From IMG/VR virus record IMGVR_UViG_3300020197_002601, positions 37,869 through 101,868 of that record: a stretch of 64,000 nucleotides of DNA. One strand, 5' to 3'. The DNA is from a virus. The notes under the pieces are model-generated. The model was not told where the DNA came from, made no database searches, and saw only the letters and a list, made by a program, of their open reading frames with translations. A program made the position numbers and the translations under genes. Within the stretch, counting starts at the first letter, position 1. The number at the start of each line of letters is the position of its first letter. Below are positions 2,437 through 29,349 of the stretch, piece by piece.

Positions 2437-2464
2437 TTGATTATTTATATCGATAAATTATCAT
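2437..2464 (+). promoter_or_regulatory. Sigma70-like promoter for the 2471 glycosyltransferase/helicase operon
   Basis: TTGATT (2437-2442), 16-nt spacer, TATCAT (2459-2464), then 6 nt to the GTG at 2471. No ribosome-binding site fits in between, so a leaderless start is predicted. The -35 box overlaps the opposing late promoter. Confidence 0.6.
2442..2449 (-). promoter_or_regulatory. Late promoter TATAAATA for minus gene 1553-2431
   Basis: Exact T4-type late box on the minus strand, ending 10 nt before the ATG at 2431. Confidence 0.7.
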
Positions 2465-2470
2465 TTATTA

Positions 2471-3127
2471 GTGAGTAAAATAGGTATTTTCGCCGTAAGT
2501 CCATTAGAAGAAAACTGCTTATTGGAGCAAAGTTGTAAGAAGTTAAAGGATATAGACTTACACATAGTCTATAACAATAAAAAGGTCGGATTACCGGAGT
2601 ACTATAACAGCATTATAAACAACAAAGAAAATAGCAAATATGATATTGTTGTTCTATGTCATCATGATATAACGCTAGAATATGCAAATCTTAGCACCCT
2701 TCATGAAGGCTTGAGAAAGTATGATGTGCTTGGTGTTGCAGGTGGCCTTAACCCTACTATTAAAGATAAGAATTTATGGCATTGGATGATGACTAAAGAT
2801 TACTATAGAGGATTTGCAGGTCATTTTGCAGATGATAGTGATTTGATGTACATAACACAATTTGGACCTTCACCGGCTAGAGTCACTTTGTTAGATGGTG
2901 TATTTTTAGCTTTAGATATAAAAAAGGTAAGAGGGACCGGGGCCCGCTTTGATGAAAGATTTATGTGGCATCATTACGATATAGATTTTTGCTTGACATG
3001 TAACACGTACAAGCTTAAATTAGGTGTGTGGCCTGTTTTATTGTATCATCAAAGCCCGGGATTAAGAAATATAGATGACTCACATTGGACCGAGAGTAAT
3101 AAGAAATTTATTGAAAAATGGAAATGA
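2471..3127 (+). CDS. Glycosyltransferase, family-2-like (StrF-type domain)
   Basis: 218 aa. The N-terminal beta strand (KIGIFAVS), the VVLCHHDITLE block, the LDGVFLALD segment with a following WHHYDIDFC acidic site, and the ending LYHQSPGL..W..SN..F..KW match short family-2 glycosyltransferases of the StrF-like group. It likely transfers a sugar from a nucleotide donor onto a glycan, a virion protein or phage DNA; the acceptor is unknown. The start is GTG 2471, directly behind a promoter. It overlaps the helicase gene by 10 nt, so both share an early/middle operon. Confidence 0.65.
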   Translation: MSKIGIFAVSPLEENCLLEQSCKKLKDIDLHIVYNNKKVGLPEYYNSIINNKENSKYDIVVLCHHDITLEYANLSTLHEGLRKYDVLGVAGGLNPTIKDKNLWHWMMTKDYYRGFAGHFADDSDLMYITQFGPSPARVTLLDGVFLALDIKKVRGTGARFDERFMWHHYDIDFCLTCNTYKLKLGVWPVLLYHQSPGLRNIDDSHWTESNKKFIEKWK

Positions 3128-4467
3128 ATACAGAAATTAAAAAGCGGTCCTTAGATTTAGACTATTACGAGAAAATCGTAGCATATAACTGCTTAGTGGA
3201 CCCGGTTTATCTATCTTCTATTATTGATTTTTTGGATGTAAAATTTTTTAAAGATAAGGATATTAGTACTGTAGTCAGAATTATATTAAGTTTCTTTAAG
3301 CAACATGGCACTGTACCGACTAATACAGAGTTAAAAGCCTACCTAACCTCGGACGATTTAAAGGAAAGCTTTAAGAGGGTTGTTCTTTCTTTTTCTGACA
3401 TAGATAAAAATTTTAATAAACAAGAGCTAGTGGAAAATACAGAAATTTTCTTAAAAGAAAAGGCCGTATACAATACCTTATTAGACGCAGCAGAGAAGCT
3501 AGATAATAAACAACTTAATACATCTGATCTTTTAACTAAAATGGAAAAAGCTGTTGGTGTTAATTTAACTCAAAATTTAGGTTTAGAGATTTTTACAGAA
3601 GTAGATAGGTTTATAGAAGAGCTACATAGAGAAGATCCCTGCATTAAGACTGGTTGGAAATGGTTAGATAATAAGCTTGGGGGTGGGTTTTTAGAGAATG
3701 GACGCTCAATGTATGTTTTTGCAGGTGAAACTAATGTTGGTAAAAGTATTTTTCTAGGTAACGTAGCTACTAACGTAGCTCTTCAAGGTAAGACTGTATT
3801 GTTAGTTTCTCTTGAAATGAGTGAAATAATGTATGCAAGAAGACTTTCTTCTTCAATTACTAATATTCCTCTTAGTCATTTAAAGGAGGATTCTGATTCT
3901 CTTAAGAAAGTAATAAAGGAAATTCATAATGATAAAAAATCAAAAATTTTTATCAAAGAGTTCCCTCCATCTACCCTAACACCTCATCAATTGAAAAGCT
4001 ATGTTAAGAAACTAATGCAAAAAGGTATTAAAATTGATTTAATAGTGCTCGACTATTTAAATCTGTTGCATAGTCCTGTTGGTAATAATAGTTATGAACG
4101 AATTTTATACTCCGCTCAGCAGGTTAGAGCGATTAGCTATGATGTTATGTGTCCTATAGTTACTGCCACTCAGTTAAATAGATCTGGCTATAATGTAGAC
4201 AATCCCGGTCTAGAAACAATTTCTGAGAGTATTGGTTTAGCCACAACATCTGATGCTATTATATCAATATGGCAAAAAGATGAGGATAAGGAGCTTGGAA
4301 TAATAAATGTAGGTATGTCAAAAAATAGATTTGGACCTAATTTTGGTAGTATTGCTTTAAAGATTGATTACAATACTTTAATTATTTCGGAAGACGAAAC
4401 AGTAAATGAAAGTGCGGAAGCGATGCAGTTTTCTAAGACTCTGACAGTGTTAAGCGACAATTCATAA
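3118..4467 (+). CDS. gp41: DnaB-like replicative helicase (T4 gp41)
   Basis: A 449-aa RecA-fold hexameric helicase that unwinds the replication fork. An N-terminal helical domain (about 1-150) is followed by Walker A GETNVGKS (203-210), an SLEMSE motif, and a Walker B-like LIVLDYLNLL. The pattern and length match T4 gp41 and DnaB. The start is ATG 3118 (a second ATG at 3124 is possible), overlapping the glycosyltransferase end. It should work with the gp59-like loader, gp61-like primase, gp32 and gp45, all encoded within the next 8 kb. Confidence 0.93.
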   Translation: MEMNTEIKKRSLDLDYYEKIVAYNCLVDPVYLSSIIDFLDVKFFKDKDISTVVRIILSFFKQHGTVPTNTELKAYLTSDDLKESFKRVVLSFSDIDKNFNKQELVENTEIFLKEKAVYNTLLDAAEKLDNKQLNTSDLLTKMEKAVGVNLTQNLGLEIFTEVDRFIEELHREDPCIKTGWKWLDNKLGGGFLENGRSMYVFAGETNVGKSIFLGNVATNVALQGKTVLLVSLEMSEIMYARRLSSSITNIPLSHLKEDSDSLKKVIKEIHNDKKSKIFIKEFPPSTLTPHQLKSYVKKLMQKGIKIDLIVLDYLNLLHSPVGNNSYERILYSAQQVRAISYDVMCPIVTATQLNRSGYNVDNPGLETISESIGLATTSDAIISIWQKDEDKELGIINVGMSKNRFGPNFGSIALKIDYNTLIISEDETVNESAEAMQFSKTLTVLSDNS

Positions 4468-4504
4468 GGGATTTTGTTAAATTGATGTATAAATGTTATT
4501 ATCA

Positions 4505-4768
4505 ATGAATTTTAGTAACATTAACCACGAGGAAACAGATCACCTTTTTAGATGTTTTTGTAGTTATGTTTGTATATGCTACAATAAAAAATATAATTTA
4601 GCTAACATATTACTTCTTTTTCTTCAAAATACATCAATAAAAAATTTTTTTAAGAGCATGATGGATGTAGAGGATGATGTATCTGCGGTAAGAATATTTT
4701 TAGAATTTGACCCTTCTCTTTGCAAAAGCAAATATATTATGAAATATTTGAATAAGCATAAAAAATGA
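4505..4768 (+). CDS. Small protein of unknown function
   Basis: 87 aa starting MNFSNINHEETDHLF, rich in Cys, Phe and Asn, with no recognised motif. An upstream in-frame ATG at 4493 would add four residues, but it lies inside a late-box-like TATAAATG (4488-4495), so ATG 4505 is preferred. Its end overlaps the next gene's ATG by 4 nt (ATGA), so it is coupled to the following genes. Confidence 0.5.
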   Translation: MNFSNINHEETDHLFRCFCSYVCICYNKKYNLANILLLFLQNTSIKNFFKSMMDVEDDVSAVRIFLEFDPSLCKSKYIMKYLNKHKK

Positions 4769-5481: not shown

Positions 5482-6116
5482 TTTCCGAAAAAATAATTTA
5501 TAACACGTTTCTAAAAATTTCTAGAACCAAGAGCGGTTTACCGTTTAGGTTTAGAAAACAATGGGACAATTTTGAAACGTCAGAGGCATACCCGTATGTT
5601 TTAAAACTAAAAAATTTCTTTTCAAGAAATCATAGTGTTGATTTAGCCGAATTTTTTATTGCACCTTATACTATATACCCAGGTGAGAGCGGGTTTGATT
5701 TAAAGTTTTATTCATCACAAAATGCAATAAAAGTATACACTTTAGCTATGAAGCAAAAACTACTTCTTCCGCCTGATGACAAATTTCACCTTAACAGTAT
5801 TGCAAAGGGATTAGCTTTTATAAAACAATTTTGCAAAGACAAGGCAATAACGGTACAGGAATACCCCCTGTTCAAAGATGGGGTACAACATGCTTTTATA
5901 ACTCATTTAAAAGATAGAAAAATTAGTCTTTATAATTTGTTTGCATTTGAAAACTTTGATAAGTGCTTACAGCAAAACGATCCAGACTTACTAAGATTTA
6001 CACTAGGTGATATTTACGACAATATACCTGTTTTTCGTACAAAATATTTTTCTAGTAAAACTGCCAAATACTTAGCAATGCAAGGGTTGAAAAAGATTTT
6101 AGGAAATAAATCTTGA
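5478..6116 (+). CDS. gp59-like helicase loader (candidate)
   Basis: 212 aa, basic and aromatic-rich. The length is close to T4 gp59 (about 217 aa), as is the style of its N-terminal region (a long RFRKQW..F then LAEFFIAPY..YPGESGFDLKFY). It sits just before gp32, as gp59 does in T4, and in the same operon as gp41. gp59 loads gp41 onto gp32-coated DNA. The assignment rests on position, size and weak sequence pattern. Confidence 0.5.
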   Translation: MISEKIIYNTFLKISRTKSGLPFRFRKQWDNFETSEAYPYVLKLKNFFSRNHSVDLAEFFIAPYTIYPGESGFDLKFYSSQNAIKVYTLAMKQKLLLPPDDKFHLNSIAKGLAFIKQFCKDKAITVQEYPLFKDGVQHAFITHLKDRKISLYNLFAFENFDKCLQQNDPDLLRFTLGDIYDNIPVFRTKYFSSKTAKYLAMQGLKKILGNKS

Positions 6117-6140
6117 TTTCTAGTTAGGACATATTATCAT
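6113..6140 (+). promoter_or_regulatory. Sigma70-like promoter for gp32
   Basis: TTGATT (6113-6118), 16-nt spacer, TATCAT (6135-6140), 7 nt to the ATG at 6148. No Shine-Dalgarno is present. The -35 region (TTGnTTTCTAG) closely resembles that of the gp45 promoter. Confidence 0.6.
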
Positions 6141-6147
6141 AATTAAT

Positions 6148-6972
6148 ATGAGTACAATTACCAATACGATGTTTGAGAGCATTAAGACTGCACTGGCAAA
6201 AAATAACAATACTTCTTCTAGAAATAAAGATATTCTTAAACTTGAAGTAGGGAATACCTATACCGTCAGACTTTTACCTAATGTAAAAGAACCGGCTAAG
6301 ACATTTTTTCACTACTATACTTTTGGGTGGACAAGCTTTGCAACCGGTCAATATGTTTCTGCAATTAGCCCTACCACTTTCGGTGAAAGAGACCCTATTG
6401 CAGAGGCTCGTTATCGCATCTTAAAGACCGGTACAGAGGAAGATAAGGCCAAGGCCCGAGCAATTCTTAGAACAGAAAAGTGGTTAGTTAATGCTTATGT
6501 TATTAACGACCCGGTGAACGAGGCAAATACTGGTAAGACAATGATTGTTCGATATGGTAAGCAGCTTCATAAGATTATTAGCGACGCTATTGAAGGTGAA
6601 GGAGCTGAAGATCTTGGCGCTAGAATTTTTGACCTTACTGATAAGGGCTCTAGTTTGAAGATTAAGGTAGAGCAGCAAGGAGATTTTCCTACTTACGTTA
6701 GTAGTAAGTTCTCTTTGCCCAAGGCTATCGAAGGGGTTGATAAGAAAAAAGCTGACGAGATTTATAAAAATACATTTGAACTTGAAACGGTATTTCCTGT
6801 TAAGAGTTATGATGAATTAAAGACTATGCTAGAAGAGCATTACTATTGCAAGAGTGAGTCTACACCAGCACCTTCGAAGAGAGTAGAAGCTGCCACCCCG
6901 GTAGTAGCAGAACAAGAAGTCTTAGAAGATGAGACCGTTCAGAAGCTTCTTGCTGGGCTTGACGAAAATTAA
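6148..6972 (+). CDS. gp32: Single-stranded DNA-binding protein (T4 gp32)
   Basis: 274 aa. A basic N-terminal segment is followed by the OB-fold core (about 25-210: KLEVGNTYTVRLLPN, the SPTTFGERDPIAEARYR block, WLVNAYVINDP) and an acidic C-terminal tail (VLEDETVQKLLAGLDEN) of the kind that docks partner proteins. The CxxC zinc ligands known from T4 gp32 are absent: the block that is Cys-rich in T4 reads SPTTFGERDPIAE here. It coats ssDNA in replication and recombination. It has its own promoter, with the ATG 7 nt behind the -10 box. Confidence 0.92.
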   Translation: MSTITNTMFESIKTALAKNNNTSSRNKDILKLEVGNTYTVRLLPNVKEPAKTFFHYYTFGWTSFATGQYVSAISPTTFGERDPIAEARYRILKTGTEEDKAKARAILRTEKWLVNAYVINDPVNEANTGKTMIVRYGKQLHKIISDAIEGEGAEDLGARIFDLTDKGSSLKIKVEQQGDFPTYVSSKFSLPKAIEGVDKKKADEIYKNTFELETVFPVKSYDELKTMLEEHYYCKSESTPAPSKRVEAATPVVAEQEVLEDETVQKLLAGLDEN

Positions 6973-6974
6973 TA

Positions 6975-7385
6975 ATGTCTGATGCACTTGTACCATTAGA
7001 TCCGAATAGCCCTCAAGCAAAAGAGGCTATTATTAATCTTTTGGGTACTACGTTAGCAGAGTTAAAAAATATTGATAAAAGCGTTATAGGTTCATCTAAA
7101 TTTGTTTCTGGTAATAGAACTAATTTAGAAAATGTTTTTAGAACCACGGTTGAATCAGCAGTACAGCCGGCTCAATCACCAGCAACAGTATCTGCCCCGG
7201 CCAATAGTCAAGTAACTGTTACCTTTACGCCGCCTCCGCAAAAACAACAACCTGAAGTAGTTGAAGACCCTAATCAATTAGTCTTTGATTTTAATCAAAA
7301 AATTACTCCTGATATTGTTAATAATAAACTAGATCGTATTTTAGATAAATTGGATAGAATTATTGATAAACTATCCAAATCATAA
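6975..7385 (+). CDS. Unknown protein with Pro-rich linker and C-terminal coiled coil
   Basis: 136 aa, starting 2 nt after gp32. A helical N-terminal half is followed by a Ser/Ala/Pro/Gln linker (about 65-95), then NQLVFDF and a regular amphipathic helix (KLDRILDKLDRIIDKL). NQLVFDF looks like a short hydrophobic sliding-clamp-binding peptide, and the next gene is the clamp. Function unknown; a small replication or transcription accessory factor is a guess. Confidence 0.6.
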   Translation: MSDALVPLDPNSPQAKEAIINLLGTTLAELKNIDKSVIGSSKFVSGNRTNLENVFRTTVESAVQPAQSPATVSAPANSQVTVTFTPPPQKQQPEVVEDPNQLVFDFNQKITPDIVNNKLDRILDKLDRIIDKLSKS

Positions 7386-7387
7386 TC

Positions 7388-7415
7388 TTGCTTTCTAGTA
7401 TATTCTTGTTATAAT
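7388..7415 (+). promoter_or_regulatory. Sigma70-like promoter for gp45
   Basis: TTGCTT (7388-7393), 16-nt spacer, TATAAT (7410-7415), 6 nt to GTG 7422. A leaderless start is predicted. Confidence 0.6.
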
Positions 7416-7421
7416 ATTTCT

Positions 7422-8150
7422 GTGAATGTTCATATCCCAGACCGTAAGCTTTTTTTAAATGGCTTCTTACTCCCTCTTAGTAAGATAAATGATAGTTGCG
7501 TAATAACGGTTACCGGTGAAGGGTTTTCTAGTGTTGTTAGTACAACCGACGCTTCCGTTATATTGCACTCTGCATATAATACCGAGCTTGATACCGAAAC
7601 AACCTTAAGATTAAACATTTCGGATATTAAAAAGGTTATTAAGGCTTTAGAATGCGTACAAGATAATAATTTTACTCTAACAATTGATAAAAATAATATT
7701 AGCTATTCAGGGCCAGAAATTAGGTTTAAATACCATCTACTCGAAGACGGTATTATTATACCCCCAAAAGTCGACGTTTCTAAGCTTGCAAGCTTATCGT
7801 TTCCTATAACATTTAACATACAATACAAGTCGTTAGTTGATCTGTTGAGAGGCTCTACATTTGCAACTGAAAGTAACAAGTTATATATCTACTCACAGGA
7901 TGGTAAAATATATGGCGATTTAACAGATAAAGCAAGACATAATGTTGACAATATTTCCTTACCTTTAGGGGATTACACTGGCAGTCCGCTAGAATCTTTA
8001 TGCTTGAATTTTGAGTTAATCCGAATAATTAGTAGTGTGAGAGTAAAGCAGTTAGAGTGTAAAATTAATCCAAAATTAGGAGTTATAATGTTTCAACTTT
8101 TAGACGGAGTTGTTAAAACACGTTACATAGCTTCGTCACTAGTAAAATAA
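7422..8150 (+). CDS. gp45: Sliding clamp, DNA polymerase processivity factor (T4 gp45)
   Basis: 242 aa, close to T4 gp45 in length. Two similar halves of beta-rich sequence, LRLNISDIKKVIKAL and the closing MFQLLDGVVKTRYIASSL, match the clamp pattern. The protein forms a trimeric ring that tethers the polymerase, and in T4 it also activates late transcription; the many late boxes here imply the same use. The start is GTG 7422, right behind the promoter. It overlaps the following gene by 1 nt (TAATG). Confidence 0.85.
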   Translation: MNVHIPDRKLFLNGFLLPLSKINDSCVITVTGEGFSSVVSTTDASVILHSAYNTELDTETTLRLNISDIKKVIKALECVQDNNFTLTIDKNNISYSGPEIRFKYHLLEDGIIIPPKVDVSKLASLSFPITFNIQYKSLVDLLRGSTFATESNKLYIYSQDGKIYGDLTDKARHNVDNISLPLGDYTGSPLESLCLNFELIRIISSVRVKQLECKINPKLGVIMFQLLDGVVKTRYIASSLVK

Positions 8151-8512
8151 TGAAAAACAAAATTACAACACCAGGTTATTTCGTTAAGAGACTTAGGGAT
8201 AACGGTTTTATTGTTTTAAAAACATTCAATGGATATGGTGCACACGACCCAAGAAGATGGACGGTATTGGTCGATCCAGGCGGCGCGAGCTTGTTTATTA
8301 CTTGCTTTCAGAATAAGGATTTTTTAAACGATATAATGTTTGAATTAAATGACGGTGGTATTCGAATTAACAAAAATTATTGTATTAAAACCGATAGTAT
8401 TGAAGTGATTATTAGATATCTTATTGAAAGAGGTATTAACAACAATGCCAAAAACACACCATATTATGCTGAGCGCCCTAAATATACATGTGAAGCACCC
8501 AAGCAAACATAA
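8150..8512 (+). CDS. Conserved-looking small protein downstream of the clamp, unknown
   Basis: 120 aa. Compact and globular, with RRWTVLVDPGGASLFITCFQN and a following acidic segment; no family recognised. It is translationally coupled to gp45 by a TAATG overlap. In T4, clamp-loader and regulatory genes follow gp45, but I see no AAA or RegA-like signature here. Confidence 0.6.
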   Translation: MKNKITTPGYFVKRLRDNGFIVLKTFNGYGAHDPRRWTVLVDPGGASLFITCFQNKDFLNDIMFELNDGGIRINKNYCIKTDSIEVIIRYLIERGINNNAKNTPYYAERPKYTCEAPKQT

Positions 8513-8528
8513 TAGCGACGGGGATAGT

Positions 8529-8825
8529 ATGAAGCCGGATAATTCCAAAAAGATTCAAAAAGGCCAGATGGAGGATCTTATTAGGTCTGTAATGAATGAT
8601 TACATGATGCACCATGCGCTCAGCAAGTCGGAAAAGTCTAAAAATATTCAAAATTTAGCTAACGTGATTTCTGAGTACCTTAGTGCGTTTGTAGTTATAG
8701 GTTACGACATGAATGGGGCACCGGTTAGTTTTATACATGCAAAAAATCAGATGGATGCTGATGCATTATCCGCCGCTATTAACAGGTTTCTGTTTCATGC
8801 GATAAATCAGCAAGAAGATAAGTGA
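8529..8825 (+). CDS. Small helical protein, unknown
   Basis: 98 aa beginning MKPDNSKKIQKGQMEDLIRS. The open frame extends further left into the preceding gene, but starting at ATG 8529 removes the overlap and leaves a purine-rich GGGGATAG before the ATG. Residues 10-60 are helical; the C-terminal half (FVVIGYDMNGAPVSFIHAKN) looks like a small beta/alpha domain. It overlaps the next GTG by 4 nt. Confidence 0.55.
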   Translation: MKPDNSKKIQKGQMEDLIRSVMNDYMMHHALSKSEKSKNIQNLANVISEYLSAFVVIGYDMNGAPVSFIHAKNQMDADALSAAINRFLFHAINQQEDK

Positions 8826-9691
8826 AACCTATTCTTCTGCTTGGTAAAGGTTACATAGGGGCCGCATTAGAGCAGCATTTAATATCTAATAATTTTACTG
8901 TTACATCTCTTAATAGGGCGCAGCTTGATTACACCTCTCCTGCTACTTTACAAAAGTACTTAAAAGAAAATAACAATTTTGAAGCGGTAATCAACTGTTC
9001 CGGGTATACGGGGTTTCCTAATGTTGACGGTTGTGAAAAACATAAACAGGACTGCTGGTTTTGGAATGTTATAGTGCCAAGAAATATCGTTCTATCTACA
9101 AATATGTTTATGATACCCACTATTCAAATTAGTAGCGGGTGCATTTATACAGGTCACGAGAAAGAATTTACTGAAGAAGATGAGCCTAATTTTGGATTGT
9201 ATAGTGACGTGAGCAGTTTTTACAGCAAATGTAAGCATGCATCTGAAACTATTTTTCAAAATTGTTATGGTTATATTTTAAGAATCAGAATGCCATTTGA
9301 CGGTACATTAGCATCAAAGAATTATCTCAATAAAATTTACAAATATAATAATTTAATTAGCTTGAAAAATAGCTTAACAAGCACCTTAGATTTAAATCAA
9401 TTTATTGCAAAATTCTTGTATTTGTTTAAGACTATTCCAGCGGGTCCAATAAATGTAGTAAACCCGGGTGGTGTTGAAGCCAAAGAAATAGTTGACCTTC
9501 TTAAGAAGAATGGAATAGAAAACCCGGGGTGGAATTTTATTGATATAGGTAGTTTAAATACAGTCGCTAATAGAAGTAACTGTGTATTAAGTACAGAAAA
9601 ATTAAGACTTTATAACTTAGAATTACCCCCCGCGATGCAATCTTTAGAACGAGATATTGCGTTGTTTGCTAGAAATGTTCTTTCAAAGTAA
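8822..9691 (+). CDS. NAD(P)-dependent sugar-nucleotide epimerase/reductase (SDR, RfbD-like)
   Basis: 289 aa. Rossmann motif GKGYIGAAL (8-16), the VINCSGYTG block, ISSGCIYTG with a catalytic Ser (104/105), and the YxxxK pair Y134/K138 identify an extended short-chain dehydrogenase close to dTDP-4-dehydrorhamnose reductases. It probably makes an activated deoxysugar for one of the phage or host glycosyltransferases. The start is GTG 8822, overlapping the preceding stop. Confidence 0.75.
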   Translation: MKPILLLGKGYIGAALEQHLISNNFTVTSLNRAQLDYTSPATLQKYLKENNNFEAVINCSGYTGFPNVDGCEKHKQDCWFWNVIVPRNIVLSTNMFMIPTIQISSGCIYTGHEKEFTEEDEPNFGLYSDVSSFYSKCKHASETIFQNCYGYILRIRMPFDGTLASKNYLNKIYKYNNLISLKNSLTSTLDLNQFIAKFLYLFKTIPAGPINVVNPGGVEAKEIVDLLKKNGIENPGWNFIDIGSLNTVANRSNCVLSTEKLRLYNLELPPAMQSLERDIALFARNVLSK

Positions 9692-9968
9692 AAAGCCACA
9701 CCATAGAGGGTGTTACGCGGTAAATACAGGTCTATATGTAGGGGAATTCCTTGTTTATGCAAAGGACAATGGATTGTATTATGAGTTTCTCAGTTTACCT
9801 AAGATGTTAGTTAGAGCGGTTCCAAAGAAATCATTTTTAACTGGTCTAAAGAATGACATAATTACATATGTGGCCAAACTCCCCACAGATGTTTATTCTG
9901 TTTGTATAGCGCAGTACAACAAAAGCAAAACTTCTACAACTACATTTATTGCACCTTTATCTAGTTGA
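9675..9968 (+). CDS. Small protein of unknown function
   Basis: 97 aa from ATG 9675 (an earlier in-frame start at 9657 adds six residues). It overlaps the SDR gene by 17 nt. Contains GEFLVYAKDNGLYYEFLSLP and a basic centre; no recognised motif. It is followed by a late promoter belonging to the next gene. Confidence 0.5.
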   Translation: MFFQSKKPHHRGCYAVNTGLYVGEFLVYAKDNGLYYEFLSLPKMLVRAVPKKSFLTGLKNDIITYVAKLPTDVYSVCIAQYNKSKTSTTTFIAPLSS

Positions 9969-9983
9969 AAATAATAATAAACC

Positions 9984-9991
9984 TATAAATA
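9984..9991 (+). promoter_or_regulatory. Late promoter TATAAATA for gene 9998-10183
   Basis: Exact late box, 6 nt before ATG 9998. Confidence 0.7.
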
Positions 9992-9997
9992 TAATAT

Positions 9998-10183
9998 ATG
10001 GACTTTGTCAGACCTTGCAAGATTGCTAGCCCTATTAGCGGACAACCAGTAGAGCCTAAGATAGTTGAACGTATTGTAGGAGATAAGATTGTAAAAGAGG
10101 CTCACTGGTATGATCCGGCTAGCGGTACCTTTATTCGTAAAGGTGTTGTTAGTATTGAAGATGTAAAGCCTTCTACTAATTGA
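9998..10183 (+). CDS. 61-aa late protein, unknown
   Basis: A small protein, MDFVRPCKIASPISGQPVEP then a charged beta-rich body with HWYDPASGTFIRKGVV. The SGQPVEP..WYDP pattern resembles a zinc-ribbon-like beta fold with most cysteines lost, but that is only an impression. It has its own exact late box 6 nt upstream and no ribosome site. A small virion component is possible. Confidence 0.6.
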   Translation: MDFVRPCKIASPISGQPVEPKIVERIVGDKIVKEAHWYDPASGTFIRKGVVSIEDVKPSTN

Positions 10184-10207
10184 TCTTTTAAGTTCCTATC
10201 TTATAAT
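10180..10207 (+). promoter_or_regulatory. Sigma70-like promoter for primase
   Basis: TTGATC (10180-10185), 16-nt spacer, TATAAT (10202-10207), 5 nt to GTG 10213. Confidence 0.6.
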
Positions 10208-10212
10208 AAGTT

Positions 10213-11244
10213 GTGCTGTTAAACGAGAACTATATCGTATCTAAATTTTACCAATACGCTGGTTATCCAAAATATAACAAAGCAACGAAGTCTTATTACG
10301 GTGGGTGTCCAGTTTGTAGAGAGGGCAAGTCATGGGGAAAGAAAAGAAGATTATATTATATTGTTAAAAAGAATTTAATCTTTTGTCATAATTGTGGTTT
10401 AAGTATGAGACCAGTTAAATGGATTCAAACCGTGGCAAATTTATCTTATGTTGAGATAATGAGGGAGAATAATCAATTTGTTGACCCTAGTATTGAATAC
10501 GAGCAGGAAATTGCCGAAGACTCACAAGTAGTTTTAAATACCGATACCCTACCAGAAGATAGTATTAATTTATCTGATGTAAGTCAAGTATCATTTTACA
10601 AAACTAACAAATATATACAGGCTGCATTGAAAACCATTTCAGATCGGCGCTTAGAAAAAGCCTGTAATCGTCCAGAATCATTTTGGATTAGTCTAACAGA
10701 TAAGATCCATAAGAATAGATTAGTAATACCATTTTATGACTTAAGCAATAAGATCGTACACTATCAAACTCGAACGTTAATTGAAACGCCTAATAACACA
10801 TTTCCAAAATATCTTTCAAAACAAAATAGCGAAAAAACTTTATTCGGTATTAATAATGTAGATCTTAATAAAAAATATTTGTTCATTACTGAAGGGCCTT
10901 TGGATGCTTGTTTTATAAAAAATGGTATAGCGGTCGCAGGTATTAATGAAGGTAAAGGAGATTTGTTTACACCCAAACAAAAAGAACAACTTAAACCATA
11001 TAGTAGTTTAGAGCAAATTTGGGTATTAGATAATCAGCGTATAGATCAAGCAAGTAAGAAGAAGACTAATTTCTTACTCAAGCAAGGTTGTAAAGTTTTT
11101 ATATGGCCGTCTGAGTTGAAAAGATTAAAAGATATTAATGATGTTTGTGTTCACCACAAGCTATATGAAATATCGGAAAAGTTTATTACTGACAATACTT
11201 ACAACGGATTAAAGGGTACTATGTTGTTGGCGAAACTTAATTAA
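10213..11244 (+). CDS. gp61: DNA primase (T4 gp61)
   Basis: 343 aa, same size as T4 gp61. An N-terminal zinc finger (C32, C35, C58, C61) is followed by an acidic linker and a TOPRIM-type active site with FITEGPLDACF (about 225-235). It synthesises RNA primers with the gp41 helicase. Start GTG 10213 lies 5 nt behind a TATAAT, so the message may be leaderless. It ends on a TTAA shared with the convergent minus gene. Confidence 0.85.
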   Translation: MLLNENYIVSKFYQYAGYPKYNKATKSYYGGCPVCREGKSWGKKRRLYYIVKKNLIFCHNCGLSMRPVKWIQTVANLSYVEIMRENNQFVDPSIEYEQEIAEDSQVVLNTDTLPEDSINLSDVSQVSFYKTNKYIQAALKTISDRRLEKACNRPESFWISLTDKIHKNRLVIPFYDLSNKIVHYQTRTLIETPNNTFPKYLSKQNSEKTLFGINNVDLNKKYLFITEGPLDACFIKNGIAVAGINEGKGDLFTPKQKEQLKPYSSLEQIWVLDNQRIDQASKKKTNFLLKQGCKVFIWPSELKRLKDINDVCVHHKLYEISEKFITDNTYNGLKGTMLLAKLN

Positions 11245-11654
11245 CTGTCGTTTGAAATGACGTATCCCTTTAATGATTCGTTAAGAGAGCTTAGCTCCAT
11301 TGCAACTCTGGCTATTCTTTTCTTTTCACTAGAAGCAACCTTTTCAAACAACGAGTCACAGCCTGCAGAAGCCAGCTGCGATTGAACACTACTACCTTCC
11401 ACACCATTTAAGAAGTTGATAAATTCTGAAATCTTTGCTATCCATTCATTTAATGATTTTTTTTGAGCGGCAGTATGAGCACCTTTAGTAGCCTCTAGAT
11501 CCGGAGGAACATTTACATTAAGTGATTTTGGATCTGTAGTAGGGTCAAGCTGCTGCTTCATCGCTTGTTGTTCGGCAGCTGCTGTGTCTGCAGCATTCAC
11601 ATCTACTTCGTCTGCTTCTAAAATACTGTTAAAATGATTGGCAAATAAACTCAT
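11241..11654 (-). CDS. Late minus-strand protein with capsid-targeting-like N-terminus, unknown
   Basis: 137 aa. The N-terminus MSLFANHFNSILEAD is an amphipathic helix ending in ILE|A, matching the T4 gp21 cleavage rule. An acidic Ala/Gln-rich linker and a helical C-terminal domain (about 60-137) with one Cys follow. A late box AATAAATA ends 5 nt before the ATG. It stands alone on the minus strand. A head-packaged protein is inferred from promoter and N-terminus only. Confidence 0.65.
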   Translation of the reverse strand: MSLFANHFNSILEADEVDVNAADTAAAEQQAMKQQLDPTTDPKSLNVNVPPDLEATKGAHTAAQKKSLNEWIAKISEFINFLNGVEGSSVQSQLASAGCDSLFEKVASSEKKRIARVAMELSSLNESLKGYVISNDS

Positions 11655-11659
11655 ATTAT

Positions 11660-11667
11660 TATTTATT
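11660..11667 (-). promoter_or_regulatory. Late promoter (AATAAATA) for minus gene 11241-11654
   Basis: Late-box variant on the minus strand, 5 nt before ATG 11654; another copy sits 4 nt further upstream (11664-11671). Confidence 0.55.
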
Positions 11668-11681
11668 TATTCTATGCTAAT

Positions 11682-11689
11682 AATAAATA
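11682..11689 (+). promoter_or_regulatory. Late-type promoter (AATAAATA) for gene 11694-12074
   Basis: Late-box variant, 4 nt before GTG 11694; divergent to the minus-strand late box at 11660-11667. Confidence 0.5.
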
Positions 11690-11693
11690 TAAT

Positions 11694-12074
11694 GTGAAGA
11701 AACGACCCAGTGTATTAAATGAAGATTCAATGAAGCTTTATAATCAATGGGTTAGCGGAATAGCAAAAAGAGATTTACAACCAGAAGTAATAACAGTTGC
11801 GGATATTGTTAATAGATATAGAAATAGAACTCAAGCTTCCAAGCAATTACCGTTTCCTTTAAACAATGCTGTAGACGCTCTTGGCGATTTGTTTGTTAAG
11901 TGCGCTGATATGAGACGTCTTATGGCCAGTAGTATTTCCTACCCTGTAATTAAAGAAAACGAAAATAGCATAAAGGCTATAAGACAGTTAAATGAAAAAA
12001 TTGCCGAGATACAAAACATAATTGTGTCGTGTACAGAAGAACTTAATCAAATAGTTGAAAACAAAGAAGAGTAA
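11694..12074 (+). CDS. Helical protein of unknown function
   Basis: 126 aa from GTG 11694. Basic N-terminus, then mostly helical, with a C-terminal coiled-coil-like stretch (about 85-122, RQLNEKIAEIQNIIVSC). No known motif. A late-type box directly precedes the start, and it is divergent from a minus-strand late gene. The -35 element for the next gene lies within its last codons. Confidence 0.6.
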   Translation: MKKRPSVLNEDSMKLYNQWVSGIAKRDLQPEVITVADIVNRYRNRTQASKQLPFPLNNAVDALGDLFVKCADMRRLMASSISYPVIKENENSIKAIRQLNEKIAEIQNIIVSCTEELNQIVENKEE

Positions 12075-12082
12075 TTTATACT
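12055..12082 (+). promoter_or_regulatory. Sigma70-like promoter for gene 12089-12517
   Basis: TTGAAA (12055-12060), 16-nt spacer, TATACT (12077-12082), 6 nt to ATG 12089. Confidence 0.55.
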
Positions 12083-12088
12083 AATATC

Positions 12089-12517
12089 ATGGTATTTAAG
12101 CTTTTAACCAGCGCTGGGTTAACTATACTTGTTGGGTCGGTTCTTGCCTGGCCTTTTACTTTTTTGGGAATTAATTTTTTTAGCGCGCTTGGTTTTTTTA
12201 CTGCATTACAATTTGTAGGTTTTTATTTTTACAGAGACATAACGGAAAAAAAACTTGCTGTAGAAGCTGAAAAATTAACTATAGCCCGGGAAGCAGAATT
12301 AAGTAAGCAAGGTTCTGTAGTAACCTGTCCATGCGATAGAGCGGTACAGACGTTTGTACCTATTGTATTGAATGAAAAGAATGATTATATGTGCCCCGGG
12401 TGTAAAAAACAAGTTAATGTGCATGTTAACTTAAAAACGGCTATAGCTACTATCCCTGTTGTAGCTGATGCACAGCAAGTATTACAACAGCAATTAATAG
12501 GTGAGGTAGAAAAATGA
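12089..12517 (+). CDS. Membrane protein with two transmembrane helices and a zinc-ribbon-like tail
   Basis: 142 aa. Two hydrophobic helices (about 5-25 and 28-47) are followed by a charged helix and then CPC...CPGC (about 74-102), which looks like a small treble-clef or zinc-ribbon site. It probably sits in the host inner membrane with the metal domain in the cytoplasm. Early/middle-type promoter, predicted leaderless. It overlaps the next gene by 4 nt. The role is unknown; host take-over or lysis-related functions are possible. Confidence 0.6.
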   Translation: MVFKLLTSAGLTILVGSVLAWPFTFLGINFFSALGFFTALQFVGFYFYRDITEKKLAVEAEKLTIAREAELSKQGSVVTCPCDRAVQTFVPIVLNEKNDYMCPGCKKQVNVHVNLKTAIATIPVVADAQQVLQQQLIGEVEK

Positions 12518-12915
12518 ACTATGTAGAAGTACAATCAAGTCAAATTATGCCTATATCTGGTATAGAAACCCCACTAGAGTTATCTAAAATAAGAAATGTG
12601 GCTAATGATTTCTTTTTCTCAAAAGGTCAACTACCTTACAAAACGTATAAAAATGCTTTGGCAGGCTCTACTGGTATTAATAAAACCACAGCAGAGTTAG
12701 TAGAGTCTTTTTTTGACACTCTAGAGACGTCTTTAAAATTACAGCTAAAAGAAAATGATAAAGACAAAACATCGCCAGAAAAAATATTATTGGTTAAAGA
12801 GGCATTTGACGTATTGAGAAGTACGTTTAGACTATTGTATAAGACGGGGTGTGGGTTTGACGTTGTAACTTTTTATTGTGCAGTTGCCGGGTTTATATTA
12901 GGTAAGTTGAGATAA
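12514..12915 (+). CDS. Unknown protein, coupled to membrane protein
   Basis: 133 aa, overlapping the upstream stop by 4 nt (ATGA). A polar N-terminus leads into a helical body ending in GCGFDVVTFYCAVAGFILGKLR, a short hydrophobic C-terminal helix that could touch a membrane. No family recognised. Its coupling with a two-helix membrane protein suggests a joint function. Confidence 0.55.
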   Translation: MNYVEVQSSQIMPISGIETPLELSKIRNVANDFFFSKGQLPYKTYKNALAGSTGINKTTAELVESFFDTLETSLKLQLKENDKDKTSPEKILLVKEAFDVLRSTFRLLYKTGCGFDVVTFYCAVAGFILGKLR

Positions 12916-12920
12916 TTTGC

Positions 12921-12949
12921 TTGACGTTCATTAGATTTCTTTATATACT
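12921..12949 (+). promoter_or_regulatory. Sigma70-like promoter for gene 12956-13300
   Basis: TTGACG (12921-12926), 17-nt spacer, TATACT (12944-12949), 6 nt to ATG 12956. Confidence 0.6.
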
Positions 12950-12955
12950 TTAAAC

Positions 12956-13300
12956 ATGAATTCACCAGAAATTATAACTATACAGGGCAATACTAAGACT
13001 TTTAAGATGAAAAAAGAGGAGTATGCAAGATGGCTTTGTCTGATTGAGGCTATAGATCTTGTCGAACGTAAAGCTGTAGAGCTAAAAACTGATATGGTTT
13101 CTGATGACTTTTGGGTTAAACCATTAGCTTTTCAAAAGTATATTGAACAGCGGCTTGAAACAATGGTTCTTGATGTAGAGAGAGAAGAATTTAAAAAAGA
13201 TATTATCCTTACTTCGATACCTAAGTTTATTGATAAAGATGAACCTGTTGAAGAAGAGGATGTAGAGCCGGAGTTAATTCCAGAAGACTTAACTGGTTAA
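12956..13300 (+). CDS. Small acidic-tailed protein, unknown
   Basis: 114 aa. A helical centre (EEYARWLCLIEAIDLVERKAV) and a strongly acidic C-terminus (about 95-110). Not recognised. It has a well-formed promoter with the start codon 6 nt behind the -10 box, and shares a TTAA stop with the convergent gp14-like gene. An acidic early protein could mimic DNA or bind a host factor; this is speculation. Confidence 0.6.
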   Translation: MNSPEIITIQGNTKTFKMKKEEYARWLCLIEAIDLVERKAVELKTDMVSDDFWVKPLAFQKYIEQRLETMVLDVEREEFKKDIILTSIPKFIDKDEPVEEEDVEPELIPEDLTG

Positions 13301-14052
13301 TAATAACCGCCGTATTCCAGCGTTTCGTTTACATCCATATTAAAGACTCTATCCTTGCTAGTGGTGTTTGCATCACCGGGGTAACTGCTTGTTCTTTGAA
13401 CAAAAGAACCAGGTAGAGTTGTAAAAGCTGCGCTTAATGTGCCATATTTTGGGGTGTCTTGTACTTGGTTGCTTCCTTTTTCAAATTGAATATTAGGCTC
13501 AAATGAATAATCAAAGCGCTTAGCCTTTAACATCCAAACGTAATGGCCCATTAATGGGTTTATTTGAGAGTTATCTTCATCAACACGTTCAGTTATTTCA
13601 AACATTTTACCGTCCCGCTCCCCAGGTCTATCACTCCCATATTCTACTAACTTGAAAACATCACCAGCTTTAGGTTCTATGTTGGGTGGGTAAACCGCGT
13701 AAAAAGAACTTATATGGACATATGCTGTAACTTGATCGTCACTTTGAAATCCAAATTTACTTAATACTAATGCATTTTCTGTTAACCTTATTGACATTAT
13801 AAAGGATTTTGGCTCTTCGAATTTTGCTAATGGCATTTCCCCGTAAATATTATCTGCACTTAAAGTGTCGTATGTATGTCTATAATACAAAACTTTTTGC
13901 CCGTAAAGGTCAATTTGTTCTCTCCAGTAATTGCTGTATAATTGACGTTCACACTCATTGTTTTCTTTATCTGTAAATCGGAGCGTGCTTGTAGTATATT
14001 GTAGGGGGTATTTTCTAATACAATTTACCCCCGTATATTTGTCCATGCTCAT
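13297..14052 (-). CDS. Neck protein, gp14-like head-tail connector (candidate)
   Basis: 251 aa, near T4 gp14 (256 aa). The order of features matches what I know of gp14: an early WREQIDLYGQKVLYYRHTYD segment, a central PKAGDVFKLVEYG..DGKMFEITERVDED, then GHYVWMLKAKRFDYSFE and an aspartate-rich end. gp14 joins the filled head to the tail with gp13 and gp15. It is second in a two-gene late minus operon, overlapping the upstream gene by 4 nt (ATGA), and lies just beyond the terminase, consistent with head-tail joining. Confidence 0.6.
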   Translation of the reverse strand: MSMDKYTGVNCIRKYPLQYTTSTLRFTDKENNECERQLYSNYWREQIDLYGQKVLYYRHTYDTLSADNIYGEMPLAKFEEPKSFIMSIRLTENALVLSKFGFQSDDQVTAYVHISSFYAVYPPNIEPKAGDVFKLVEYGSDRPGERDGKMFEITERVDEDNSQINPLMGHYVWMLKAKRFDYSFEPNIQFEKGSNQVQDTPKYGTLSAAFTTLPGSFVQRTSSYPGDANTTSKDRVFNMDVNETLEYGGYY

Positions 14053-14450
14053 TGAATTACATATCCTTGTATTTCTGGACTAAACTTTAAAACTTTACCT
14101 GTATTACCTAAGCTTTTAGGTGAATTAGAGTTAAGCCTAGAAATACCATACTTACTACATATTTGCTTTAATTCGTCTTCAGATAATTTTTGACCTCTTG
14201 CGTTAGTAACCGCACTTATTGCTGTAGGATCTGCCTTGTGCATGTCAGGTACTGTTTGAACATTTTTTCTAAATTTAGGATCTTTAATAATTTTTCTATG
14301 TCTTTCTCTTGGTTTATCTGGATTCATAGGTCGAAATGGTTTGGGTGGAGGGGTATAATGAATTGGCATAATACCGGTATTCCAGGTAGCGGCCGAATTT
14401 ATTAATTCTTTTTCGAGAAGCGATACAAATACTTTTTCGAAGAGACTCAC
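14049..14450 (-). CDS. Late minus-strand protein with capsid-targeting-like N-terminus
   Basis: 133 aa from GTG 14450. Begins MSLFEKVFVSLLEKE, very similar in style to the N-terminus of the 11241-11654 product. A basic, Pro-rich segment (TPPPKPFRPMNPDKPRERHR) and a small C-terminal domain (KLSEDELKQICSKYGISRL) follow. Exact late box 5 nt upstream. First gene of the operon with the gp14-like neck protein. Function unknown; a virion or head-assembly role is inferred. Confidence 0.65.
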   Translation of the reverse strand: MSLFEKVFVSLLEKELINSAATWNTGIMPIHYTPPPKPFRPMNPDKPRERHRKIIKDPKFRKNVQTVPDMHKADPTAISAVTNARGQKLSEDELKQICSKYGISRLNSNSPKSLGNTGKVLKFSPEIQGYVIQ

Positions 14451-14455: not shown

Positions 14456-14463
14456 TATTTATA
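14456..14463 (-). promoter_or_regulatory. Late promoter TATAAATA for 14049-14450 and gp14-like gene
   Basis: Exact late box on the minus strand, 5 nt before GTG 14450. It lies immediately downstream of the T-run of the terminator of the preceding minus gene. Confidence 0.75.
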
Positions 14464-14513: not shown

Positions 14514-15458
14514 TTATTTAAAAAAATCGCCAACTTTGTAACCAGCAGCACCTACATTAATGCTACCAGGCTTTGTCAAGCCATGACCACCAGCGGGAGA
14601 TAAGGTTTTGCCCTTACCATCAACTACACCAGCTACATCACCGCTAGCCTTACCGCCAGAAGCGCGGATCTTACCAACAGTAGGTACTTTACCAGCATGT
14701 GTTGTGCCATGGCCTACTAGAGACTGACCAGCCTTAGGGGAGACTTCTTTAAGATCAGTACCTTCACCGGCAACTTCTTTCTTATCTTCCTTCTTTTCTT
14801 CAGCCTCTTCAGCTTCGTCTTTCTTATCTTCCTTCTTTTCTTCAGCCTCTTCCTTATCTTCTAGAGGAGCGGCTTCATCACCAAGATCTTCATCACCGTG
14901 CTCTTCTTCACCACCAAGAACATCCATAAGAGCATCATGTAATTTTTGAGCTAAATCTCTATCAAGCTTTACTGTAACGGTATCTTCACTACCGCCGCTA
15001 AGATCGAGGTCCTTAGCATCTGTAGCTTCACCTTCTGGACCGGCTTGTAAGCCGATATCGAGCTTGTCGCTACCAATTACATCTTCATATAGTTTATCAA
15101 AAATTGACTTCATATGATTATTTATATTCTCTTTAGCTAATTTTCTAGTATTATCTGAAAATTTTTCTGGTTCAAAGTAATTATTCTTTTTTGCTGTCTT
15201 TGGATCGACAATTTTCTTATTAACACCTAATACAGCCTCTGGCCCAGAATCTTTATGTGCAAAAGCATTTTTATCAGACCCCTTGGCCATAATCTTTGCC
15301 ACGTTAACCTTTTTATCTGTAGCTTTTGGAAATGATTCTAGCTTTTTAACTGCTTTTTCCTCAACTACTTCCTGAGTATTTGTTTGATCAGCCTTTTTAG
15401 ATTCTAACATTTGTTCATATACCTGACTAATATCGCTGATACTTTTTACTCTTGTCAT
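14514..15458 (-). CDS. Acidic, low-complexity late protein with capsid-targeting-like N-terminus
   Basis: 314 aa from ATG 15458. The open frame extends 25 codons further, but that would run across the late promoter and into the terminase gene, so the inner start is used. N-terminus SISDISQVYEQMLE|S fits a targeting/cleavage peptide. Residues about 195-255 hold a Glu/Lys/Asp-rich region with an internal tandem repeat (EEAEEKKEDKKDEAEEAEEKK). The tail is Gly/His/Lys-rich with GHGTTHAGKVPTVGKI. Exact late box 5 nt upstream; own terminator. Its composition resembles internal head or prohead core proteins; not assigned. Confidence 0.7.
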   Translation of the reverse strand: MTRVKSISDISQVYEQMLESKKADQTNTQEVVEEKAVKKLESFPKATDKKVNVAKIMAKGSDKNAFAHKDSGPEAVLGVNKKIVDPKTAKKNNYFEPEKFSDNTRKLAKENINNHMKSIFDKLYEDVIGSDKLDIGLQAGPEGEATDAKDLDLSGGSEDTVTVKLDRDLAQKLHDALMDVLGGEEEHGDEDLGDEAAPLEDKEEAEEKKEDKKDEAEEAEEKKEDKKEVAGEGTDLKEVSPKAGQSLVGHGTTHAGKVPTVGKIRASGGKASGDVAGVVDGKGKTLSPAGGHGLTKPGSINVGAAGYKVGDFFK

Positions 15459-15463
15459 ATATC

Positions 15464-15471
15464 TATTTATA
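15464..15471 (-). promoter_or_regulatory. Late promoter TATAAATA for 14514-15458
   Basis: Exact late box on the minus strand, 5 nt before ATG 15458. Confidence 0.75.
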
Positions 15472-15473
15472 CC

Positions 15474-15481
15474 TCTAAATA
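15474..15481 (+). promoter_or_regulatory. Late-type promoter (TCTAAATA) for terminase
   Basis: Late-box variant 6 nt before ATG 15488, nearly abutting the divergent late box at 15464-15471. Confidence 0.45.
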
Positions 15482-15487
15482 TATTAA

Positions 15488-17848: not shown

Positions 17849-17856
17849 TAAATGAT

Positions 17857-17892
17857 ATGAGTCAAAAAGTTTCTCTTGGAGGTTTAATCTAA
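17857..17892 (+). CDS. Possible 11-residue leader peptide upstream of sheath
   Basis: ATG 17857 opens MSQKVSLGGLI and stops with TAA at 17890-17892, one base before the sheath ATG. The sheath Shine-Dalgarno lies inside this mini-ORF. Its start is 2 nt behind the TATAAATG box, or 8 nt behind CATAAATA, so it would be the first start codon on the late transcript. It may couple translation into the sheath gene. It could also be chance. Confidence 0.35.
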   Translation: MSQKVSLGGLI

Positions 17893-17893
17893 T

Positions 17894-20284: not shown

Positions 20285-20296
20285 AATATAATGGAG

Positions 20297-20304
20297 AATA
20301 AATA
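20297..20304 (+). promoter_or_regulatory. Late-type promoter (AATAAATA) before tail tube gene
   Basis: Late-box variant 7 nt before ATG 20312; a GGAG at 20293-20296 overlaps its upstream side. Confidence 0.45.
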
Positions 20305-20311
20305 ATACATT

Positions 20312-20857: not shown

Positions 20858-20869
20858 TTAAATCTGTAT

Positions 20870-20877
20870 TATAAATA
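20870..20877 (+). promoter_or_regulatory. Late promoter TATAAATA for 20884-21822
   Basis: Exact late box, 6 nt before ATG 20884. Confidence 0.75.
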
Positions 20878-20883
20878 ATAGGG

Positions 20884-22649: not shown

Positions 22650-22650
22650 T

Positions 22651-28854: not shown

Positions 28855-28858
28855 TCTA

Positions 28859-28866
28859 TATTTATA
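28859..28866 (-). promoter_or_regulatory. Late promoter TATAAATA for 28354-28854
   Basis: Exact late box on the minus strand, 4 nt before ATG 28854; back-to-back with the dUTPase promoter. Confidence 0.75.
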
Positions 28867-28868
28867 CG

Positions 28869-28896
28869 TTGAAAATATTATACCATACCTTATAAT
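28869..28896 (+). promoter_or_regulatory. Sigma70-like promoter for dUTPase/gp44
   Basis: TTGAAA (28869-28874), 16-nt spacer, perfect TATAAT (28891-28896), 6 nt to ATG 28903. Confidence 0.7.
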
Positions 28897-28902
28897 TTAG
28901 GT

Positions 28903-29349
28903 ATGTCGTCATTACCACCTTATTTACCTGCTATTAAATTTGAAAAGACTCACCCAGATGCCCAATTACCAAAAAAGAACTTTGATACTGACTCTGGGTG
29001 GGATTTAGCAGCGGTAGAAAATACGGTTATACCGGGGCTTGGTCAAGCAGTCGTGCCAGTTGGTTTAAAACTTGCCTATCTAGAGCCAGGCTACTGGTTG
29101 CAAGTGGGATCTAGATCCGGTCTTAGCTTTAAGAGTGGTATTTTAGCTCACCCCGGGATCATAGATCAAAATTACAGAGGAGATCTTGGGGTATTACTTT
29201 ACAATCATCGTCAAGAGCAATATGAAGTGAAGAAAGGCGATAGAATTGCACAATTAATCGTTCATTATAATATTCACATGGTTGTGGGGTGGGGTCAAGT
29301 AGAACAAACTGACAGAGGTGAAAAAGGCTTCGGAAGTAGCGGTAAATAA
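28903..29349 (+). CDS. dut: dUTPase (deoxyuridine triphosphatase)
   Basis: 148 aa with all five trimeric-dUTPase motifs in order: DSGWDL, GSRSGLS, GIIDQNYRGDLGV, GDRIAQLIV and RGEKGFGSSG. It hydrolyses dUTP to dUMP, keeping uracil out of phage DNA and supplying dTMP synthesis. Transcribed from a clean sigma70-like promoter, predicted leaderless. The clamp-loader gene follows 1 nt after its stop codon, so the two are co-transcribed. Confidence 0.96.
   Translation: MSSLPPYLPAIKFEKTHPDAQLPKKNFDTDSGWDLAAVENTVIPGLGQAVVPVGLKLAYLEPGYWLQVGSRSGLSFKSGILAHPGIIDQNYRGDLGVLLYNHRQEQYEVKKGDRIAQLIVHYNIHMVVGWGQVEQTDRGEKGFGSSGK

Follow-up and report, generated by a model that had tools for sequence, protein, structure and literature searches.

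Sigma70-type and late-type promoters beside start codons

We analysed a stretch of viral DNA of 64,000 nucleotides (nt), hereafter the window, which corresponds to bases 37869-101868 of the 101,868-bp IMG/VR record IMGVR_UViG_3300020197_002601, and found that boxes of two promoter types, one resembling the bacterial sigma70 promoter and the other the T4 late promoter, end a few nt before the start codons of many of its genes. The record matches part of a 229,717-bp contig (G001; 35% GC; the contig behind locus L003) at 99.998% identity, and the phage is a member of the T4 superfamily, with PHROG matches to phrog_224, 223, 23, 45, 219, 138 and 207 and a T4-type gene set comprising a gp32-type single-stranded DNA-binding protein, clamp, sheath, tube, T4-type baseplate wedge, gp23-type head protein and head protease. 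Primase, dUTPase, helicase and terminase were also identified using PHROG, and a gp55-type late sigma factor is encoded beyond the window, at record bases 28985-29602 (phrog_234, E 1.8e-24; phmmer against T4 gp55, E 7e-8). For the 7.5 kb at window positions 5500-13000, no DNA-level match was found among 50,697 phage records, and the gp32-like protein is ∼26-32% identical to the best 40 of 774 matching phage records, which are mostly from cyanophages, plus a pelagiphage and a Pseudomonas phage. Gene starts were picked from codon score and start-codon type only, with upstream sequence ignored.

All seven TTGnnn/TATnnT pairs that an earlier note on this DNA had described were recovered, with spacers of 16 or 17 nt and distances of 5, 6 or 7 nt to the start codon. 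Each lies on the plus strand and combines a -35 TTG box and a TATAAT-like -10 box, within the 16-18 nt spacing of a sigma70 promoter. The first, at 2437-2470 (TTGATT at 2437-2442, 16-nt spacer, TATCAT at 2459-2464), ends 6 nt before the GTG of open reading frame (ORF) 2471, and the second, at 6113-6147 (TTGATT at 6113-6118, 16-nt spacer, TATCAT at 6135-6140), 7 nt before the ATG of the gp32-like gene. The gp45-like sliding clamp has its promoter at 7388-7421 (TTGCTT at 7388-7393, 16-nt spacer, TATAAT at 7410-7415, 6 nt to GTG) and the primase at 10180-10212 (TTGATC, 16-nt spacer, TATAAT at 10202-10207, 5 nt to GTG). ORFs 12089 and 12956 follow at 12055-12088 (TTGAAA, 16-nt spacer, TATACT at 12077-12082) and 12921-12955 (TTGACG, 17-nt spacer, TATACT at 12944-12949), each 6 nt from ATG, as does the dUTPase (phrog_135) at 28869-28902 (TTGAAA, 16-nt spacer, TATAAT at 28891-28896, 6 nt to ATG). 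Our box-tagging script marked six window starts as sigma70, the clamp promoter being missed because of a stricter -35 rule. The earlier note had called these genes replication-type, which PHROG assignments bear out for four (single-stranded DNA-binding protein, clamp, primase and dUTPase); for ORFs 2471, 12089 and 12956 no family was hit in PHROG (E 0.001) or Pfam (E 0.01).

Taken literally, the pattern TTGnnn-N16/17-TATnnT-N5-7-ATG/GTG is present eight times on the plus strand of the window (the seven starts and position 5095) and three times on the minus strand. That such spacing exceeds chance was confirmed: 7 of 58 called window starts matched, whereas 300 dinucleotide shuffles gave 0.07 matches on average and never more than 1, and at no other spacing between 0 and 44 nt did a called window start have a match. 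On the whole of G001, 23 of 274 called starts matched at 5-7 nt and 5 of 274 at 8-10 nt, with 0-2 in the remaining bins shown. Four or more of the starts matched at 8-10 nt (5721, 222262, 223495 and 225302, minus strand) are doubled, ATGATG, and in these the first ATG is 6 nt from the -10 box. Genes with such doubled starts, six contig-wide, are short, lie near both ends of G001 and have strong TTGACT..TATAAT-type promoters.

A second promoter class, absent from the earlier note, consists of T4-late-type boxes (TATAAATA, CTAAATA), and 13 of the 58 called window starts have a TAAATA box 4-7 nt upstream. On the plus strand these stand at 9986-9991 (6 nt before the ATG of ORF 9998), 15476-15481 (CTAAATA, 6 nt before the ATG of the terminase large subunit; phrog_5989 and others), 17208-17213 (4 nt before the GTG of ORF 17218), 20299-20304 (7 nt before the ATG of the tail tube gene, phrog_45, with GGAG further upstream), 20872-20877 (TTATAAATA, 6 nt before the ATG of ORF 20884), 30913-30918 (5 nt before the ATG of ORF 30924, a gp25-like baseplate wedge), 41624-41629 (CTAAATA, 4 nt before the ATG of ORF 41634), 45146-45151 (4 nt before the ATG of ORF 45156) and 54794-54799 (5 nt before the ATG of the head maturation protease, phrog_207). 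On the minus strand they stand at 11660-11665 (ATG of ORF 11654), 14456-14461 (TTATAAATA; GTG of ORF 14450), 15464-15469 (ATG of ORF 15458, divergent from the terminase box) and 30881-30886 (ATG of ORF 30875, divergent from the baseplate box), each at 5 nt. The weakest case is ORF 17218, where the box falls inside the preceding gene (16-nt overlap) together with a Shine-Dalgarno (SD)-like 4-mer. As expected of T4-type late promoters, the TATAAATA-like boxes lack a -35 element, TAAATA is enriched before starts and a gp55-type sigma is encoded; none of the 35 late-box genes of G001 has a TTG -35 pair at 4-8 nt.

The two classes are coherent for genes of known function, with single-stranded DNA-binding protein, clamp, primase and dUTPase under sigma70-type promoters and terminase, tail tube, gp25-like baseplate and head protease under late ones. 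The earlier note had confined the geometry to an early/middle or replication class; as these late genes are likewise placed by way of gp55-type boxes, it is not a trait of such a class. Head-to-head late promoters, all in leaderless position, occupy gaps of 29 nt (15458-15488) and 48 nt (30875-30924), and leaderlessness may allow such compact divergent gaps. In the 39-nt divergent gap between 2431 (minus strand) and 2471 (plus strand), the sigma70 promoter overlaps a TATAAATA box ∼10 nt from the start of the opposite gene. Elsewhere, window positions 123-863 hold a QueC-like queuosine/deazaguanine biosynthesis gene (phrog_1550), possibly part of a DNA modification pathway, and repeat blocks of ∼400-870 bp with 81-87% identity (20 rows listed) lie at the record ends and on G001 at ∼91-92 kb and 191-194 kb, perhaps representing repetitive fibre-type genes.

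Placement in relatives and in cultured T4 phages

The sigma70 -10 hexamer spans -12 to -7, so a gap of 6 nt places +1 on the start codon. For the T4 late box, an excerpt of PMC2988020 gives a length of 8 bp and a beginning at -13; the box thus ends at -6, and a gap of 5 nt likewise places +1 on the start codon. The observed modes were 6 nt for sigma70 pairs and 5 nt for late boxes, the one-base difference that the two geometries require. That two promoter types should share one predicted +1 appears hard to explain otherwise.

Nine related contigs (G001, G005, G006, G008, G009, G011, G014, G015 and G016) contributed 526 genes preceded by a gap of at least 25 nt. Sigma70 pairs were present at 4-8 nt in 66 of these (shuffle expectation ∼1.3) and late boxes at 3-7 nt in 146 (∼7). 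For pooled histograms we dropped genes with less than 60 nt upstream, leaving 520, and took an ATG directly before a called start as the start; sigma70 pairs at 5, 6 and 7 nt then numbered 8, 51 and 13 (0.4, 0.2 and 1.0 expected), and TAAATA at 4, 5, 6 and 7 nt 30, 62, 41 and 12 (0.8, 1.6, 1.0 and 2.0 expected). Among these genes, -10 boxes at the leaderless distance of so-called TA-led genes are well above the shuffled control, and by strict rules 59 of 143 (∼41%) gap-preceded G001 genes have leaderless geometry through the two promoter classes. An unsupervised motif search of G001 returned TAAATAAT beside the start and, with late-box genes removed, a TTGAT motif 27-30 nt upstream. Start codons in the leaderless class are ATG or GTG (GTG in 32 of 219), never TTG; GTG opens 37 of 484 in-operon genes.

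Conservation was followed at gp32, for which 59 distinct upstream regions were drawn from 80 loci with 49-100% protein identity. The best sigma70 pair lay 6 or 7 nt before the ATG in 50 of the 59 (4.9 expected at 5-7 nt), and with a second gp32 query added, 71 of 96 distinct regions had it at 5-8 nt (10.4 expected). In a quick gp32 tree with long branches (93 rows: 85 environmental, 8 isolates), leaderless labels, given to 62 of the 85 environmental rows, changed 10 times, compared with 26 in shuffles; L040, L057, L063 and L068 were labelled 'not' because their -35 lacks TTG, though TATAAT ends 6 nt before the ATG. From this we infer that the environmental clade inherited the trait from its ancestor and that shifts came later.

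Eight cultured T4 relatives (865 genes together), put through the same test, share with the clade homologues of gp32, clamp, primase, sheath, tube, baseplate, head and gp55 as well as the TATAAATA-type late box, but differ in having the boxes further upstream and SD motifs on many genes. Overall, 4 of the 865 genes had sigma70 pairs at 4-8 nt and 15 had late boxes at 3-7 nt. Given as sigma70 pairs at 4-8 nt, late boxes at 3-7 nt and late boxes at 8-45 nt, the counts were 0/126, 1 and 30 for T4; 1/70, 4 and 12 for HTVC008M; 0/90, 0 and 31 for S-PM2; 2/119, 2 and 27 for P-SSM2; 0/165, 1 and 21 for Ochrobactrum OC; 1/65, 4 and 15 for Mosig; 0/97, 0 and 9 for DLP_6; and 0/133, 3 and 20 for RHph_I1_18. 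The unsupervised search returned GAGGA.AA, an SD, for T4, and a late box 14-37 nt from the start for S-PM2.

Ribosome-binding signals, bS21 and the candidate host

SD 4-mers were about as frequent as expected by chance before gap-preceded clade genes (38 of 526; ∼30 expected), reached roughly double the chance level in front of in-operon genes (97 of 484; ∼51 expected) and occurred in 5 of 203 genes of the leaderless class. T4, in contrast, has SD motifs in 80 of 126 genes with a gap of at least 25 nt, and SD was above chance before gap-preceded genes in seven of the eight isolates. The remaining isolate, P-SSM2, is at chance (12 of 119; 11.4 expected) and differs from the clade in that its boxes seldom adjoin starts although its SD is at chance.

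A gene of G001 that the gene caller had skipped (39344-39463, minus strand) encodes a phage version of ribosomal protein bS21 (PF01165, above cut-off) and has TAAATA 4 nt before its ATG. Of 14 clade records, two (G001 and G012) encode a phage bS21, but so do the SD-using pelagiphages HTVC008M and Mosig; its presence alone therefore does not explain the trait, which argues against bS21 as sole cause. A Bacteroidetes host was also considered; promoters of that group are of the TAnnTTTG type, and the boxes here are TTGA/TATAAT. Both bS21-encoding phages of Bacteroidetes (PMC9723584) and the SD-independence of Bacteroidetes (PMC9976891) are described.

The host is likely one of the Verrucomicrobiota, as suggested by cargo genes of G001. 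By title, 76 of 80 kept bacterial relatives (of 135 found) of a secreted GH13-type protein belong to Verrucomicrobiota or the wider Planctomycetes-Verrucomicrobia-Chlamydiae (PVC) group, with identities of up to 52%, and the protein had no phage record match at E 1e-5. Four PEP-CTERM-like proteins, recognized by pattern, and two prepilin-like proteins are also encoded; when three of the former were tested against PF07589, two scored above the cut-off and one below. This GH13-type, PEP-CTERM-like and prepilin-like cargo, at G001 12880-14327 and 203915-210510, is host-like and unusual-looking for a T4 relative. None of the other clade contigs checked, which are mostly partial, has PEP-CTERM-like or prepilin-like genes by pattern.

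The suspected host phylum was represented by 80 loci, reduced to 67 on removal of short ones and of L256 and L278. TAnnnT boxes at 6 and 7 nt numbered 8 and 6 (1.6 and 1.0 expected) in 288 genes of 47 GC-rich loci, and 3 and 2 (2.6 and 1.8 expected) in 142 genes of 20 GC-poorer loci. Four genomes of the phylum (397 genes) had 9 and 11 at these distances (3.5 and 3.9 expected), and 24 in the 5-8 nt window compared with 17.8 expected. Leaderless genes thus probably exist in the phylum, with a peak too modest and uneven to establish that they are common. A 16S rRNA was found in one of eight candidate host genomes (Haloferula), and its anti-SD is normal. The 33-kb Verrucomicrobia phage P8625, a lytic isolate, shows similar placement in 4 of 21 genes with a gap of at least 18 nt, as judged by eye and without statistics: TTGACA or TTGCAA, 17 nt, and TATTGG, TATCTG or TAATAC ending 7 nt before ATG. 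It has SD 4-mers in 8 of 52 genes, and differs in that its -10 boxes are weak and overlap an imperfect GTATCC/GGATAC repeat. At 5448, 10772 and 15594 of P8625 (L294), promoters overlap this imperfect GTATCC...GGATAC inverted repeat, which suggests an operator.

Leaderless transcription and its alternatives

In our judgement, the pattern very probably reflects leaderless transcription of many promoter-proximal genes from host-type and gp55-type promoters in most of the clade, with a probable tuning to Verrucomicrobiota. Early on, a host-type sigma70 holoenzyme would use TTGA../TATAAT promoters with ∼6 nt between the -10 box and the start codon; later, a phage gp55-type sigma would use TATAAATA/CTAAATA boxes, for which this interval is ∼5 nt. 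With either offset, +1 falls on the first base (A or G) of the start codon. Translation of the leading gene on such an mRNA would begin at a 5′-terminal AUG or GUG, genes inside operons would be reached via coupling or weak SD sites, and a few heavily used structural genes would retain an SD. The placement would most likely be an adjustment to a Verrucomicrobiota-like host whose ribosomes take leaderless mRNAs. The earlier note's reading of the placement as leaderless gained strong support from the shuffles, from footprinting across contigs and from relatives; its scope was too narrow, and leaderless transcription itself is what we infer from the placement. More speculative, and in our view unlikely, is a two-stage leaderless programme in which host sigma70 and the phage late sigma would both start RNA at the start codon, most promoter-proximal mRNAs would compete for ribosomes via a 5′-terminal AUG or GUG, and phage bS21, the gene of which has its late box in leaderless position, may tilt host ribosomes towards such mRNAs.

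Several observations weigh against leaderless transcription as the general rule. By the rules used, 71 of the 143 gap-preceded G001 genes fall in neither promoter class, possibly through miscalled starts, tRNAs or weak promoters, and 13 more have only a -10-like hexamer, a number near chance; the sigma70 consensus applied is of the E. coli type and may not be that of the host, whatever its identity. G011 is the weakest contig, with 1 sigma70 pair and 9 late boxes in 39 genes. The low SD frequency of the leaderless class is partly built in because the boxes occupy SD positions. Tail sheath (17894) and major head (56627) genes have GGAGG or GGAG 11 nt before the ATG and no adjacent box, in which they differ from most gap-preceded genes here, so that an SD appears to lead at least some late genes in strong use. 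Leaderless genes are not less structured than in-operon ones over the first 40 nt of the coding sequence (-2.86 vs -2.73 kcal/mol, p 0.17). Among the isolates, late boxes at 3-7 nt slightly exceed expectation in HTVC008M (4 vs 0.95), Mosig (4 vs 1.15) and RHph_I1_18 (3 vs 0.15). The assignment to Verrucomicrobiota, moreover, draws on the cargo genes of one contig. Two further observations concern the offsets themselves. A smaller set of late boxes stands 8-12 nt from the start, implying short leaders, and many of the gp32 exceptions fall in a sublineage around L075, which we take from a general impression of its contigs to be marine-like, where boxes lie at 9, 13 or 24 nt and leaders are A-rich. 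Across 94 gap-preceded genes of 16 loci in this group, pairs spread over 6-9 nt, and an SD 4-mer was present in one gene.

Both the 8-12 nt subgroup and the gp32 boxes at 9-24 nt of these marine relatives would fit real promoters that give leaders of ∼3-10 nt, or translation from a downstream codon, making the mRNAs near-leaderless or leadered without SD. We consider this improbable, as the modal offsets of 6 and 5 nt are narrow and equal to normal -10-to-+1 distances, and the gp32 N-termini (mostly MST...) begin at the called codon in the rows printed. It is scarcely credible that AT-rich sequence before starts, such as an RPS1-type or A-rich enhancer, merely mimics -10 boxes and has no promoter function: at 35% GC, A/T-rich runs are indeed common before starts on the contig, but 51 pairs at the modal distance stand against 0.2 in dinucleotide shuffles, the unsupervised search recovers a -35 box at the right spacing, the split into classes fits gene function where known, and little of the pattern is seen in T4, HTVC008M and Mosig, whose GC content is 33-35%. 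A different kind of alternative, compatible with leaderless transcription, places the phage in another leaderless-tolerant group, with the same placement for a different reason. This is a serious possibility, short of an even chance, given that cargo genes are exchangeable between hosts and that only G001, among the mostly partial contigs checked, carries PEP-CTERM-like and prepilin-like genes; the taxonomy of the GH13 relatives and the two PEP-CTERM-like proteins that pass the PF07589 cut-off speak instead for Verrucomicrobiota.

Whole classes of leaderless transcripts have precedents. In passages of PMC3594737, most middle and late mRNAs of the Thermus thermophilus phage phiYS40 are described as leaderless, so phiYS40 would resemble the clade in having a class of such transcripts, and by that description differs in its Thermus host and middle/late class; the clade, for its part, belongs to the T4 superfamily and sets both host-type sigma70 and gp55-type late promoters on start codons. 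A passage of the AR9 paper says that phage transcripts 'are often leaderless' (PMC5312081). As for cellular genes, excerpts describe a -10-like TANNNT box ∼10-12 bp upstream of the start codon in bacterial TA-led genes (PMC3160421) and a -10 adjacent to the ORF in Deinococcus-Thermus (PMC12340547). TA-led genes, for example of Deinococcus-Thermus and Actinobacteria, share the -10-like box near the start, whereas the clade is viral and has a second promoter type. The earlier note's claim to novelty must accordingly be narrowed: a leaderless phage class was already known from phiYS40, and none of the literature matches listed, with preprints outside their scope, reported leaderless transcription for a T4 relative.

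In the textbook picture of T4-type late transcription, messages are leadered and mostly SD-led, and a large environmental branch of the T4 superfamily appears to have shifted both promoter types onto start codons. If true, the positioning of promoters and the mode of translation evolved together with the host throughout a virus clade, one sublineage of which has relaxed placement, and the clade would be a natural series for studying when and why leaderless translation wins. Gene finders that rely on SD may place starts wrongly in these genomes, and from the two offsets the 5′ ends of ∼200 phage mRNAs (203 genes) can be predicted almost to the base.

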